Origin: Aeromonas piscicola
Lineage (GTDB): Bacteria > Pseudomonadota > Gammaproteobacteria > Enterobacterales > Aeromonadaceae
Direction: 5' to 3'
Length of the DNA: 64,000 nt
Assembly (NCBI RefSeq): GCF_000820005.1
Contig: NZ_CDBL01000067.1
Span: forward strand, 1 to 64,000
Shown: positions 7,884-13,877 of the stretch, piece after piece
Position numbering within the stretch: the stretch's first letter is position 1
How the letters are laid out: every line of letters begins with the position of its first letter
The notes under the pieces: generated by a model
Told to the model about the DNA's origin: nothing
The model's input: the letters and a program-made list of their open reading frames with translations, nothing else
The model's database searches: none
Translations under genes and position numbers: made by a program

Positions 7884-8203
7884 AAGGTTACCTCCAAATT
7901 GCCGAATTCATAGGTGCGAGCGGTGACCAGCACCCGGTCGGGGGCCTCTTCACGGATCACGATGGTGCCGGGTACCAGCCGCTCGTCATCTTCTACCAGC
8001 AGTTCAATCTCGGTCATCACATCCGCGCGCAGGGTAGGGCTGCGCTCGCCGATGAGCTTGCGGGCCAGCCCCGACTCCATGATGCGGTGCTTGATGTCCT
8101 GCCCGATGCTGTGGCGGTCCTGGGTGTAGCGCGGCTGGCCGCCGGCATCGAGTTGCCAGGCGCCGTTCACCACCAGGAGATCGATGTACTTGGGTTCGTT
8201 CAT
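7880..8203 (-). CDS. DUF2590-like baseplate protein (probable gpW/gp25 counterpart)
   Basis: The start at 8203 is preferred over 8221 because GGTGGAG lies about 8 bases upstream and the ATGA overlaps the tape-measure stop. The 107-residue product (MNEPKYIDLLVVNGAWQLDA) has the gp25/gpW-like pattern: an N-terminal description of an axis, a central GQDIKHRIMESGLARKLIGE and a C-terminal strand pair ending FGNLEVTL. It lies directly upstream of gpJ, where P2 has gpW. The lysozyme-like wedge role is inferred from position and pattern. Confidence 0.7.
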   Translation of the reverse strand: MNEPKYIDLLVVNGAWQLDAGGQPRYTQDRHSIGQDIKHRIMESGLARKLIGERSPTLRADVMTEIELLVEDDERLVPGTIVIREEAPDRVLVTARTYEFGNLEVTL

Positions 8204-10257
8204 CCGCGTTGCTCCACCCATGCGTTTTTCTCGAGCTCGTCCGGTGTCGGCATGGTTTGGGGGTTGATGTGCACCTCGCCGATATGCAGGGCGCGGGTCG
8301 GCTTCTGGTTGGCCGCACTGGCCGACGCGTTGGCCTGGATCAGCTGCTGGCCCAGGCCACCTGCTGGCACCTTGCTCTGGTCCTGCTGGCGGTAGTCAGC
8401 CAAGGGGCTGTTCACCACACTGGCAGGGGGGGCCATCGCCACGGGGGAGGCGGCCCACTTTGGCAGCACGTCCACGTTCAAGGCGCCGGTGTCGAACTGG
8501 GTACCCAAGAACTGATTCGAGGCATCGAGCGCGGTCTTGATGAGCGCGATCAGCGCCCGCCACGGGGTCAGCAGGGTGTCGAAGGCCGCGCCAAGGATAT
8601 TGCCCATCCGGCGGCCAGCATCGGCCACGTTGTCGATCCCGACGCTGGCCTGGTTGGTTTGCTCAAAGAAGCTGCCGAGCCAGGCGATCCCCTGACCGAG
8701 CAGCCCCACGATGAGGGTGAAGAAATCCACCAGGGGGGCCAGCGCCTGTGAGGCGAGCGGGCCAAAGGTCTCGGCCAGACCGCCAAAGAAGGCGCCCAGC
8801 AGTTCAAAGTCGGTCAGTACCGCGAAGGTGGCGCGCAGTTCGTCCCAGTAGATGATGGCCAGCGCCACGGCGGCGACCAGCGCCAGGATCGCCCCGATGA
8901 TGATCACCGCCGGGTTGAGGCTCATGGCCATGTTGACGGCCAGGATCACCGGGCGCAGGCCCGCGAGGGCCTTCTTGAACAGGGTGAGGGGAGCGGTGAG
9001 GCCGCCAAAGGTCAGCGCCCAGGCCAGGGTGGCCAGCTTGGCGAGGCCGGCCAGCATCAACCAGGCCCCGGTCACGATGCCAAGGCCGGCGATGGCCAGC
9101 ACGGCGTACCCCACCACCTTGGTGAAGTTGGGAAAGATCCGGGTCCAGCGCAGCACCACGGCGCCGCCATCGGCAAAGGCGCCCACCACCTTGTTGATGG
9201 AGGGGAGCACGGCCCCAAAGGCGGCAGCCCGGATCGCGAACCAGGCTGATTTTACCCGTTTCCACTGATCTACCATGGCCTTGGCCATCTGCTCGGCCTT
9301 GCCCATGCCGTGGGTGTTGGCGAGGGCGTTGATACTGGTGGCCAGGCCCTGGGTGTTGCTCATCAAGAGCTTGATCATGGAGACCGCTTCGTCCGAGCCA
9401 AACGCCTTTTTCAGCTCGTCGCTGCCGGCCACGGTGAGGGTTTCACCATAGCGGGCCTTGAGCTTGTCCAGGATATCGAGCACCGGCAGCATGTTGCCGG
9501 CCGAGTCGGTGAACTTGAGACCGAGCGCTTTCTGGGCACTGCCGACACCGGCCAGGAAGGACTTGAACTTGGTACCGGCCTCGCCGCCGCCCATGGTGGC
9601 CTGCAGGTGGCCGAGCACGGCGAACTGCTCATCCATCGAGATCCCGGCGGCGGTGGCGTTGGCGCCAATGCCCTTGAAGGCGTCGGTCATGCCCTGGCCG
9701 GTGGTCTTGAACATCTGCACCGCGAGCGCGGTCTTGCCGGCGACATCCTCCACCCAGTTGGCCTTGCCCATCTTCTTGGCCTGCTGCTCGAAGATGCCAT
9801 ACATGGTGCCCATGTAGTTGGTGATGGTGGCGGTGTCGGCCTTGGTGGCCTTGGCCAGCACGCCGGAGGCGCGGGCAAAGGAGGGCAACTCGTTCCCCTC
9901 CAGCCCGGCGATGGCGGACTGGATATCGTAGGAGGCGCTGACAAACGCGCTGGCCGATTCGCCGTACTTGACGGAGAACATCAAGGCGGTGTCGGAGAGT
10001 TGCTTGAGGGTCTTTTCATGGACATCGAGCGAGGCCACTTCGGCCAGGGCTGCGTCCATTTCCAGGGCCGGCCCCAGCGCGTTCTGGATCGCCATGGTGC
10101 CGGCCAGCATGGCGGCGCCACCGCCAGCAATATTGGCAAAGCCGCTTTGCGCGGTCTCTTTCACCCGGTTCAGCTGGCTGTTGATGCCATCAAGCGGCCG
10201 GGTAACGGCATCTATCAGGGCAATCCTCATGATCAGTTGTTCGGTGACAGAAGCCAT
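8200..10257 (-). CDS. Tail tape measure protein
   Basis: A 685-residue protein with the tape-measure core domain (TIGR01760 type) at residues 60-360: EMDAALAEVASLDVHEKTL, GESASAFVSASYDIQSAIAG, ADTATITNYMGTMYGIFEQ and GISMDEQFAVLGHLQATMGGGEAGT. This is followed by two or three hydrophobic stretches (residues about 380-480, including VVGYAVLAIAGLGIVTGAWLM) and a less conserved C-terminus. It sets tail length and is thought to enter the host envelope at infection. It starts 3 bases after the end of the gpE' frame, as expected if E/E' is its chaperone. Confidence 0.9.
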   Translation of the reverse strand: MASVTEQLIMRIALIDAVTRPLDGINSQLNRVKETAQSGFANIAGGGAAMLAGTMAIQNALGPALEMDAALAEVASLDVHEKTLKQLSDTALMFSVKYGESASAFVSASYDIQSAIAGLEGNELPSFARASGVLAKATKADTATITNYMGTMYGIFEQQAKKMGKANWVEDVAGKTALAVQMFKTTGQGMTDAFKGIGANATAAGISMDEQFAVLGHLQATMGGGEAGTKFKSFLAGVGSAQKALGLKFTDSAGNMLPVLDILDKLKARYGETLTVAGSDELKKAFGSDEAVSMIKLLMSNTQGLATSINALANTHGMGKAEQMAKAMVDQWKRVKSAWFAIRAAAFGAVLPSINKVVGAFADGGAVVLRWTRIFPNFTKVVGYAVLAIAGLGIVTGAWLMLAGLAKLATLAWALTFGGLTAPLTLFKKALAGLRPVILAVNMAMSLNPAVIIIGAILALVAAVALAIIYWDELRATFAVLTDFELLGAFFGGLAETFGPLASQALAPLVDFFTLIVGLLGQGIAWLGSFFEQTNQASVGIDNVADAGRRMGNILGAAFDTLLTPWRALIALIKTALDASNQFLGTQFDTGALNVDVLPKWAASPVAMAPPASVVNSPLADYRQQDQSKVPAGGLGQQLIQANASASAANQKPTRALHIGEVHINPQTMPTPDELEKNAWVEQRG

Positions 10258-10260
10258 GAT

Positions 10261-10449
10261 TTATCCATTGAAGGCGGTGGCGATGCCCTCGGCGACGGCA
10301 TGGGCGAGGCGTTGGGCGTGGTACTTGTCTAACCAGAGGGCGCGAGCCAGGGTGTCGAGCTCGTCATCCTCATGGGGCAGGTAGTGGCGACGTAGCGCCA
10401 GCACCTGCTCCAGTTGGTTGTGCTCGATGGCCTCGGCGCGCGCGGTCAG
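10261..10449 (-). CDS. gpE' extension, read only by -1 frameshift from gpE
   Basis: There is no start codon of its own. The frame is open from the shift site to TAA at 10261-10263, directly before the tape measure start. After the shift it reads LTARAEAIEHNQLEQVLALR and ends AEGIATAFNG (62 residues), rich in tryptophan, histidine and leucine like P2 E'. The fused E-E' product would be about 149 residues. P2 and its relatives make the same kind of extended tail chaperone by -1 slippage; lambda G/GT is the model. Expression here is inferred from the exact slippery heptamer. Confidence 0.8.
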   Translation of the reverse strand: MTARAEAIEHNQLEQVLALRRHYLPHEDDELDTLARALWLDKYHAQRLAHAVAEGIATAFNG

Positions 10450-10709
10450 TTTTTTACTTCGATATCCAGATCAGGGGCGTACTGCTCGTTGACCTTGGCG
10501 GCGATCTGCAGGGCTGCGCCCGGGCGGGCCAGCAGGCCATCCAGCGCCTCTTTGCTGTCGGCGTCGACGATGCGCTTGAGGTACTGGTGGGACGGCGCCA
10601 CCTTGTCGGTCATCGACAGGCCGTTGATGTAGCTGTTGTAGGCCACCATGGTGGGCACAAAGCGGATGTCAGTGCCGGCGATAGTCAGGGTGATGGTTTG
10701 CTTGCTCAT
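10446..10709 (-). CDS. Tail assembly chaperone gpE-like
   Basis: An 87-residue protein (MSKQTITLTIAGTDIRFVPT, ending DIEVKN). The family is the P2 gpE-type tail protein, with an N-terminal small beta domain and a helical LKRIVDADSKEALDGLLARP centre. It is thought to coat the tape measure and recruit tube subunits. Its last codons form the A_AAA_AAC frameshift site. ATG at 10709 overlaps the Rz1-like stop by ATGA, so it is coupled to the lysis cassette upstream. Confidence 0.82.
   Translation of the reverse strand: MSKQTITLTIAGTDIRFVPTMVAYNSYINGLSMTDKVAPSHQYLKRIVDADSKEALDGLLARPGAALQIAAKVNEQYAPDLDIEVKN
10449..10455 (-). other. Programmed -1 ribosomal frameshift site A_AAA_AAC
   Basis: On the minus strand the gpE zero frame reads GTA AAA AAC TGA. 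The heptamer A AAA AAC sits exactly in register (X XXY YYZ) one codon before the stop. A one-base slip back continues as CTG ACC GCG for 62 codons. A_AAA_AAC is one of the most efficient bacterial slippery sequences. P2 itself uses T_TTT_TTG. Confidence 0.85.
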
Positions 10710-11005
10710 GGGGTGGTTTCCTCTTGTTCAATCCACTGGTTCAGGGTGTTGAGTTGGGTTTGGCAGCGGCGCAGCGCCGTCTGCAGGGTGGGGATAAACC
10801 GCACGGCCTCGCCGTAGGTGCTCCCCGTAAAGTCAGGCTCCGGGCAGTGGGGTACCAGCCCCGGTGGCGGCAGCCGTTTCACCACCTTGGTTTGCACCAC
10901 TGTGGTGGGCTGGCTGGAGCAGGCGCAAAGCACCAGCAGGCAGAGGCTCGCGAGCACAGTCCGGGCGGCCCGCCGGCGGCGTGGCCAAGGCTTCTTGCAA
11001 TTCAT
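10706..11005 (-). CDS. Rz1-like outer membrane spanin lipoprotein
   Basis: A 99-residue protein with a basic N-terminus (MNCKKPWPRRRRAARTV), a hydrophobic segment and a lipobox LCAC at about residues 26-29, followed by SSQPTT. The Pro-rich stretch RLPPPGLVP is typical of o-spanins. It starts inside the Rz-like gene in another frame and extends past it, with 173 bases shared. With Rz it would fuse inner and outer membranes in the final lysis step. The length is longer than lambda Rz1 (60), closer to P2 LysC-type partners. Confidence 0.82.
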   Translation of the reverse strand: MNCKKPWPRRRRAARTVLASLCLLVLCACSSQPTTVVQTKVVKRLPPPGLVPHCPEPDFTGSTYGEAVRFIPTLQTALRRCQTQLNTLNQWIEQEETTP

Positions 11006-12281: not shown

Positions 12282-12737
12282 TTAATCCATCAGGTGGCGG
12301 GTGTCGTCCTTGGAGAGGTACGGCACGCCATCGAGGTGGATGAAATCGGGGGAGGTGACGAAGCCTTTCACCTTGTGCACGGTCTTGCTGCCGCCCTTGG
12401 GATCGATGTCGAGCAGGTCGGCCACGTTCAGCTTGACGCCGAAGGCCTCCACCTTGATCTCCTCGCTGCCGGTGCTGGCGTAGAACAGCACATCGTCCGG
12501 CTCCATCCCGCGCCAGCTGCCGGCCCGTTTGGCGGCGGCGATCAGCTGCTTGAGGTTCTTGGTGTCGAGCTCGAATTCACACTCGGCCGAGACATCCCCA
12601 TCCACAAAGCCATCGGGAATGCCCCGGGTCTGCGCCACCGCGCTGTTGTCGGTGATGGAGAGGCTGGCCTTTTCGACGTGGACCATGGCCCCCATCAGGG
12701 TGGTGTCGAAGTTGATACCGGAAAAGCGTTTGGTCAC
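12282..12737 (-). CDS. Tail tube protein (gpFII counterpart)
   Basis: A 151-residue protein beginning MTKRFSGINFDTTLMGAMVH. It is beta-rich with the segment PDGFVDGDVSAECEFELDTKN and a terminal FIHLDGVPYLSKDDTRHLMD, as in the DUF2597 tail tube family. It lies 3 bases after the sheath gene, the usual sheath-tube pair. Tube subunits stack into the inner channel of the contractile tail. Confidence 0.8.
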   Translation of the reverse strand: MTKRFSGINFDTTLMGAMVHVEKASLSITDNSAVAQTRGIPDGFVDGDVSAECEFELDTKNLKQLIAAAKRAGSWRGMEPDDVLFYASTGSEEIKVEAFGVKLNVADLLDIDPKGGSKTVHKVKGFVTSPDFIHLDGVPYLSKDDTRHLMD

Positions 12738-12740
12738 GGG

Positions 12741-13877
12741 TTAACCCTCCCCGTTGTTGAGGCTCAGATCGAGCATGATGTTGACGATGATCCCCTTGGG
12801 GCAGTCCACGGTGCGCACCACCACAAACACCGAGACCAGGTTCTTGGCGGTCCACTGGATAGAGATGTCGCCATCCTGGGGGGAGGCAATGTCGCCCGGG
12901 AACGGCTGGCCGTTGATGGTGGTCGCCTTGGCCATGGTGCGCAGGTCTTTGCCAAAGTAGGTGATGGCGGCGGCGGTGCTGCCCGGGGTGGAGTTGAAGG
13001 CGCGATCCCCGATACGGGCGATGGCGCGGATACGGGTACGGCGCGCCACCTTGTAAGCAATGCGCAGGTTCTCGATCACCTGGTAGTCACCGCCCTCAAC
13101 GTCCAGGGTGCGGCCATCAGCCCAGTACAACCCGTCATAGTCCGGGTACCACATCGGTACCGAGTAGCGGTTCTGTTCCAGGGTCTGCAGGGTGGCCAGC
13201 GGCAGCGGGATCCCGTCTTTGTCCACCGGCTTGTTGCCAAGGCCGACCAGGGCGCCGGTCTTCACCCGGCAGGGGCTGTCGGCAATGCTCACTGCCCGGT
13301 TGCACAGGCGGCCCGCATAGGCGCCGGCGAGGTTGGGCCAGAGCTGTGGTACCAGGCTGATGGAGTCGGCTTTGATGCCCTCTTGCAGGGCGGTCAGCGT
13401 GGCCTCGTAGTCGCTCCAGGCTTGGGCGGTGCCCTCCTTGCCGACGGCCTTGGCAACAATGCCGGGCACGGCCAGCAGCATGAACTGCCAGCGCCCCCAC
13501 TTGGCGATCAGCTCCTGGTTGAGGGCGTGGGCGGCGTTGATGCCCGCCTGGTCCCACTCCTGACCCAGCACCACGACCCCTTCAAAGGATTGGGTCTGCT
13601 GGGCGCTGCGCACGGCATCCTGCCAGGATTGGTCGGTGGGCAGCACATAGGCGGCGGCGGTCCAGTTCTGGCCGGCGTTATCACGGGCGGCCAGCAGGTT
13701 GGCCTTGAGCTCGCTGTCACCGGTACCCAGCAACTGGTCGAGGTCTGACTGGGCATTGAGGGAGAGCAGCTTACCGGTGTTGCTGGCGGCGCTGCCGATG
13801 AACAGCAGGTGGCGTTCGACCTCGGTCACCGGCCCCTGCATTTGGTTCAAGTTGTTGATCTGCACATAAGGCCACAT
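12741..13877 (-). CDS. Contractile tail sheath protein (gpFI counterpart, DUF2586 type)
   Basis: A 378-residue protein starting MWPYVQINNLNQMQGPVTEV. The patterns SSNTGKLLSL/LDQLLGTGDSELK, the central LPTDQSWQDAVRSAQQT and the C-terminal sheath-like region (RTRIRAIARIGDRAFNSTPGST, then IQWTAKNLVSVFVVVRTVDCPKG) place it with the DUF2586 sheath family of K139/PhiO18P-type phages. Sheath rings contract to drive the tube through the envelope. Confidence 0.83.
   Translation of the reverse strand: MWPYVQINNLNQMQGPVTEVERHLLFIGSAASNTGKLLSLNAQSDLDQLLGTGDSELKANLLAARDNAGQNWTAAAYVLPTDQSWQDAVRSAQQTQSFEGVVVLGQEWDQAGINAAHALNQELIAKWGRWQFMLLAVPGIVAKAVGKEGTAQAWSDYEATLTALQEGIKADSISLVPQLWPNLAGAYAGRLCNRAVSIADSPCRVKTGALVGLGNKPVDKDGIPLPLATLQTLEQNRYSVPMWYPDYDGLYWADGRTLDVEGGDYQVIENLRIAYKVARRTRIRAIARIGDRAFNSTPGSTAAAITYFGKDLRTMAKATTINGQPFPGDIASPQDGDISIQWTAKNLVSVFVVVRTVDCPKGIIVNIMLDLSLNNGEG

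Follow-up and report, generated by a model that had tools for sequence, protein, structure and literature searches.

The window, by which we mean the whole 64-kb stretch of Aeromonas piscicola DNA that was analysed, carries on its minus strand a block of phage tail genes in which a short chaperone ORF, gpE, sits directly upstream of the tape-measure gene. Upstream of gpE lie genes for the sheath, an HP1-type tube, a zinc-finger protein, a holin and an Rz1-like spanin, and the nearest phage records to the region are the Aeromonas phages phiO18P, P05B and A051. The features relevant here are the following (positions with a plus sign are counted after the heptamer):

8200..10257, minus strand: tape measure protein gene T, starting right after E' (PhageMin_Tail PF10145, E 1.3e-26; phrog_28)
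10261..10449, minus strand: putative -1 extension E', 62 codons (10449..10264) plus TAA (DUF6890; phrog_7050)
10395..10439, minus strand: candidate downstream stem, arms 10439..10434 / 10400..10395 (+10..+15 / +49..+54)
10446..10448, minus strand: zero-frame stop TGA abutting the heptamer, in a TGAC context
10446..10709, minus strand: gpE, zero-frame tail assembly chaperone, 87 aa (Phage_TAC_10; phrog_1214)
10449..10455, minus strand: slippery heptamer A_AAA_AAC, in phase with the zero frame of gpE
10706..11005, minus strand: Rz1-like o-spanin (LysC; PF23793, E 3.2e-17), its stop overlapping the gpE start (ATGA)
12282..12737, minus strand: tail tube, HP1 Orf24 family (PF10772, E 2.4e-63)
12741..13877, minus strand: tail sheath (PF10758, DUF2586, E 4.5e-131), 87.3% identical to the phiO18P sheath

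The 3' end of gpE reads ATC GAA GTA AAA AAC TGA on the minus strand, and the -1 frame, read from C10449 (CTG ACC GCG...), contains 62 sense codons before a TAA at 10263..10261, leaving three bases between this stop and the tape-measure ATG at 10257. A previous sequence-only reading of the region had placed the heptamer exactly in the zero frame at the last codons of gpE and had described a 62-codon open -1 frame that ends just before the tape-measure start; both statements are borne out. By itself, AAAAAAC is no rarity in the window, given that 7 copies were found against 2.78 expected. Likewise, the 5.18-Mb genome has 5 copies of NTAAAAAACTRA, which is not enriched as such, the backward-read control giving 7; three of the five copies are the gpE gene of the window and its two paralogues (93% and 79% DNA identity). 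The further copies in the same genome (G000:C71 and G000:C73) keep the heptamer, the abutting TGA and the 62-codon extension. As a separate observation on gene content, phiO18P has, between its holin and lysozyme genes, a gene for a putative N6-methyltransferase (L004, 2658-3734); in the window, the holin and lysozyme ORFs overlap, which leaves no space for such a gene.

The gpE protein matches Phage_TAC_10 (PF10963; E 5.2e-35, 119.9 bits against a curated cut-off of 25.7), and E' matches DUF6890 (PF21830; E 7.2e-23, 80.5 bits against a cut-off of 23.6) as well as phrog_7050, which, like DUF6890, is listed as of unknown function. AlphaFold models gpE as a two-strand, four-helix domain (mean pLDDT 92.4) and E' as a three-helix domain that is folded from residue 2 (mean pLDDT 95.8). 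Sequence searches of the PDB produced only spurious-looking repeat-protein matches for gpE and no match below E 0.15 for E', and a PDB fold search with the E' model found none at E ≤ 0.001. Judging from the profile matches, the pair is Phage_TAC_10 plus DUF6890, of the HP1 type, and does not belong to the P2 gpE/E' families.

Conservation of the heptamer and the -1 frame

In a first comparison, the heptamer and the abutting stop were present in 90 of 91 loci. A subsequent profile survey covered 322 loci, including P2 loci, duplicates and the genome's own copies; gpE was detected in 320, of which 314 carry both domains, and six loci were set aside (four with gpE running off the contig and two without the extension near a contig end). 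In all 314 loci with both domains, duplicates included, E' lies in the -1 frame relative to gpE, although for the 126 loci whose -1 extensions were used to build the E' profile, this holds by construction. An in-frame A_AAA_AAN is kept in 247 of the 248 distinct 300-nt junctions: A_AAA_AAC with an abutting stop in 125, A_AAA_AAA with an abutting stop in 43, A_AAA_AAG with the stop displaced by 7 codons in 72 and by 12 codons in one (the AAG junctions coming almost all from one query, as the best 80 of 363 relatives), A_AAA_AAA with a displaced stop in 5, and A_AAA_AAC with the stop 4 codons on in one. The only junction lacking the heptamer, from a viral contig (L186), reads GTA AAA ATC TAA and still shows the match to the -1 extension; it is either a natural mutant or a sequencing error. 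Among the 247 heptamer junctions, two reach the contig end before codon 55 and two contain an early -1 TGA (after 38 codons in L028 and after 35 in L157) with the heptamer and abutting stop intact, and these could be either decaying prophages or errors. Loss of the heptamer or of the open -1 frame in close relatives, which the sequence-only reading had named as grounds for rejecting the frameshift, is thus limited to these 3 of 248 junctions (L186, L028 and L157).

Pfam's own profiles gave an independent and concordant picture. Across 197 genomes of the order, PF10963 and PF21830 are found in exactly the same 19, the genome analysed here included, and all 25 DUF6890 matches lie in the -1 frame, 53-62 bases after the TAC_10 match; among 369 genomes of the class, both families occur in the same 2. 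One of the 26 TAC_10 matches in the order survey (G103:C65:20917-21159) has no DUF6890 partner.

The codon whose wobble base is the first A of the heptamer is GTA in 221, CTA in 16 and ATA in 10 of the 247 heptamer junctions. The encoded amino acid varies (Val, Leu or Ile), and the wobble A is present in 248 of 248 junctions, including L186 (GTA, without the heptamer). This is the fair count, a figure of 247 of 247 being partly circular because those junctions were selected for a heptamer containing this very base; the sequences are also related, and hence the counts do not represent independent draws. Elsewhere in these genes, 11.6% of Val codons are GTA, 3.3% of Leu codons are CTA and 1.3% of Ile codons are ATA, and the codon with the first A changed at least five times on the tree of 117 fusion proteins. 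Of the changes in extension codons 2-15, 69% fall on third positions of the -1 frame, and for codons 16-55 this share is 62%, compared to 57% for gpE in the zero frame (1902 pairs at 80-97% identity, related and hence non-independent). By this measure, protein-type selection acts on the -1 frame from the slip site onward.

Database versions of the extension

No joined product is annotated in the 21 distinct phages that we inspected (23 records; a search with gpE matched 76); the extension is a separate small ORF in 9 of these phages and unannotated in 12. When the 149-aa fusion was compared with 5.8 billion proteins, the 31 matches were 86-90 aa long and covered at most 58% of the query, and a search with the extension retrieved 22 separate proteins, several of them named 'DUF6890 family protein'. 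Eight of the 22 are 62 aa long and begin with MT(A/G)R, the slip-site codon being taken as the start; the others are 44-60 or 73 aa long. The expectation that annotation by ORF length would miss the extension is accordingly too simple, the extension being present in protein databases as separate entries. In Vibrio phage yong1 (L320, 701-1149), the name 'tail assembly chaperone' is given to the small ORF in the place of DUF6890, with the chaperone ORF itself entered as DUF2730, so that the product names look shifted around the frameshift.

These 22 proteins, known from protein sequences alone, and the separate ORFs in 9 of the 21 phages are what one would expect if DUF6890 were translated on its own, as a small protein initiated internally, either at the slip-site CTG or at the GTG at 10404, which is preceded by GGAG and serves as the start in some database versions. 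Such initiation appears highly improbable to us, given that the internal start codon is not conserved: the position of GTG 10404 is occupied by ATG, GTG or TTG in only 65 of 243 junctions, and extension codons 0-16 contain at least one of these triplets in 133 and none in 110. Moreover, codons 2-15, which lie upstream of this GTG, already show protein-type selection in the -1 frame, and internal initiation leaves the conservation of the heptamer unexplained. Because of the -1 relation and the conservation of the heptamer across relatives, DUF6890 is best read, from comparative sequence evidence, as a C-terminal domain expressed by frameshifting rather than as a free protein.

The abutting stop and possible RNA signals at the slip site

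The zero-frame stop touches the heptamer in 168 of the 248 junctions (125 AAC and 43 AAA). Among the 84 abutting rows of the tree, the stop is TAA in 47, TAG in 19 and TGA in 18, with at least 15 changes, and the last base of the heptamer switched between C and A 6 times; adjacency itself changed only 3 times across all 117 rows. AAC-adjacent junctions have CTA (81) or CTG (41) as the first codon of the -1 frame, and AAA-adjacent ones have ATA (42). CTA and ATA are rare codons elsewhere in the same genes, and their use at this position is the pattern expected if selection keeps a stop precisely there, which might either tune the ratio of the products or merely fix the C-terminus of gpE. An apparent rule that AAG goes with a displaced stop (73 of 73) was discarded: the combination has one origin and provides a single independent pair on the tree, which puts the correlation beyond statistics. 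Nor is the link between the last base of the heptamer and adjacency strict, with displaced stops in 5 of 48 AAA and 1 of 126 AAC junctions. Slip sites abutted by a stop are also found in RSV and BYDV (PMC4373837). According to the same source, a stop at the abutting position lowered shifting at the HIV-1 site in a bacterial test, where raised RF2 eliminated it, and in early work on RSV changing the abutting codon was without effect.

Relative to protein-preserving synonymous recodings, the excess folding stability at +4..+64 is strongest in the 42 AAA-adjacent junctions (mean Z -2.66; p ≤ 0.05 in 71%), modest in the 122 AAC-adjacent ones (mean Z -1.05; 24%) and hardly present in the 72 of the AAG clade (mean Z -0.39; 10%), against Z values at +100..+160 of 0.15, 0.37 and -0.12, respectively. 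At p ≤ 0.05, a helix whose 5' arm starts at +5..+12 is seen in 13 of 17 AAA-adjacent, 10 of 28 AAC-adjacent and both AAA-displaced representatives, and in 0 of 13 AAG and 0 of 1 AAC-displaced representatives. Of the same 17 AAA-adjacent, 28 AAC-adjacent and 13 AAG representatives, 3, 5 and 1, respectively, reach this level with arms starting at +13..+20, and 2, 4 and 0 with arms starting at +21..+28. It is clear from these folding predictions that many AAC and AAA lineages carry a predicted stem starting about 8 nt downstream of the heptamer. The stem and the abutting stop are separable since both AAA-displaced representatives carry the stem. In an enteric-type set of 11 sequences (A7), of which 7 were chosen for the best helix in or near the register and 4 are relatives added regardless of fit, a helix at +9..+16/+32..+39 shows compensatory changes in 5 of 8 pairs, a score reached in 0 of 500 shuffles; the helix of a second set (A8, 9 sequences) shows no covariation above shuffles. 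For the window itself, folding is stronger than in recodings over +4..+84 (Z -1.61, p 0.045) and not over +4..+64 (Z +0.15); its candidate stem has a predicted energy of -6.6 kcal/mol (p 0.083 against synonymous recodings), and the conserved candidate stems in its clade vary mostly on one side, without convincing covariation. The AAG group looks structured at +10..+70 relative to dinucleotide shuffles (mean Z -1.84), a signal that may come from coding because it is absent relative to synonymous recodings. The same clade (L091, L125, L127 and others) also shows structure at +60..+120 beyond that of synonymous recodings (mean Z -1.71; p ≤ 0.05 in 56% of 72 junctions), too distant for a usual frameshift stimulator. 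An upstream Shine-Dalgarno stimulator was considered and rejected: at -20..-6, the anti-SD duplex energy is not lower than in synonymous recodings, the level of p ≤ 0.05 being reached by none of 33 AAC-adjacent, one of 17 AAA-adjacent and none of 14 AAG representatives. Rfam gave no match within 10100-10800.

The shift could conceivably occur during transcription instead, with RNA polymerase slipping on the run of 6-7 A and inserting one A, to yield a mixed mRNA and a product with the junction EVKK-LTAR. A-runs have been implicated in transcriptional realignment (PMC3711429), and EVKK-LTAR is the very junction that the sequence-only reading had predicted. We nevertheless consider this route scarcely probable, given that the runs comprise only 6 or 7 A, transcriptional cases on A-runs being given as n > 7 in the same source, and that the synonym-controlled downstream stem in several lineages fits a ribosomal stimulator. 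The predicted junction itself calls for correction: tandem slippage after decoding of AAC gives mainly EVKN-LTAR, and EVKK-LTAR would require either that the ribosome slips before it decodes AAC or that one A is inserted during transcription. Least plausible of all, to the point of being negligible, is that the -1 frame is a fossil or a chance open frame and gpE the sole product, which would accommodate the broken heptamer of L186, the early -1 stops of L028 and L157 and the unpartnered TAC_10 match but not the invariable -1 relation of the profile pairs, the confinement of both domains to the same 19 genomes, the third-position excess or the near-universal heptamer.

Proposed mechanism and comparison with known systems

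Taken together, the -1 frame in 314 of 314 loci, the heptamer in 247 of 248 junctions, coding selection on the -1 frame and adjacency to the tape-measure gene support the proposal made from the sequence alone, and we are highly confident that the gpE/E' locus gives rise to two products through programmed -1 frameshifting on A_AAA_AAC. Most ribosomes would decode GTA AAA AAC and stop at the TGA directly behind it, releasing the 87-aa gpE. A minority would slip back one base on the heptamer, both tRNAs re-pairing on AAA AAA, bypass the TGA and read 62 more codons, to produce a 149-aa fusion with DUF6890 at its C-terminus. We infer slippage at some rate such that the two products would be made in a set ratio, in which the abutting stop and the downstream stem would presumably play a role. 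By analogy with lambda gpG/gpGT and with P2, gpE alone would be the form that coats the tape-measure protein, and the fusion would use its extension to recruit tube subunits. A_AAA_AAC is among the consensus shift heptamers in a genome-wide survey, which also gives a measured 6-7% for an HK97-like chaperone cluster (PMC3711429), and is given as the g-t shift site of HCTV-2, which infects a halophilic archaeon (PMC5009743).

The literature outside most subscription journals yielded no report of frameshifting for DUF6890, HP1/K139 or PF10963/IPR024406, and the available portions of PMC10612066, PMC8537503 and PMC11292799 make no mention of an HP1-type chaperone frameshift. Christie et al. 2002, cited in PMC3931495 for the conservation of the arrangement among P2-related phages, may cover HP1-type phages. 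Judged by the in silico tests, the frameshift is real and spans the family. The system is of a known kind, and what seems to be new, on sequence grounds, is a family in which the extension is filed as a free protein of unknown function and the slip site, unlike that of P2, is mostly abutted by a stop. The arrangement recurs in a large phage family, where databases enter the extension as a protein of its own. The present analysis suggests a likely function and route of expression for DUF6890/PF21830 and phrog_7050, and it amends the gene models of classical phages such as HP1, HP2, K139 and phiO18P.

Much more tentatively, the HP1-type site might represent a distinct class, in which an intrinsically weak heptamer (A_AAA_AAC or A_AAA_AAA) lies flush with the stop, in many lineages ahead of a stem that begins some 8 nt further downstream, and direct competition between release factor and slippage sets the ratio of the short to the long form; one branch would then have escaped to the strong A_AAA_AAG, with neither an abutting stop nor a synonym-controlled stem in this position. 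If such competition operates, output in vivo would respond to the supply of RF1 or RF2. The natural series of sites (AAC or AAA with an abutting stop, often with a stem, and AAG without) is well suited for testing the influence of the stop on -1 slippage in bacteria.

Among known systems, the -1 sites of RSV and BYDV belong to eukaryotic RNA viruses and are comparable to that of the window only in architecture. The sequence-only reading had stated that P2 does the same, which is true of the arrangement and the principle but not of the protein families (PF10109/PF06528 in P2 versus PF10963/PF21830 here). As in the window, gpE and gpE+E' of P2 consist of a short chaperone and a -1 extension ending beside the tape-measure gene T; in contrast, the P2 heptamer is T_TTT_TTG, its stop lies 6 codons beyond the heptamer instead of abutting it, as is common in the HP1-type set, and the P2 RefSeq record annotates the join whereas none of the HP1-type phage records inspected does. 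Given the different Pfam families and the lack of any BLASTP alignment between P2 gpE and the gpE of the window, the designation gpE/E' is right as an analogy and wrong as a family name. The heptamer of lambda is G_GGA_AAG, unlike the A_AAA_AAC of the window. The lambda gpG/gpGT pair resembles the proposed one in that a low-level -1 shift gives the long form of a tail chaperone (PMC5009743). Direct homologues of the window locus include orf26 of HP1 and HP2, orf30 of K139, orf31 of F108 and orf36+37 of phiO18P; in these phages, annotated without a frameshift and with the extension either unannotated or entered as a separate ORF, A_AAA_AAC, the abutting stop and a -1 extension of the DUF6890 type are all present.
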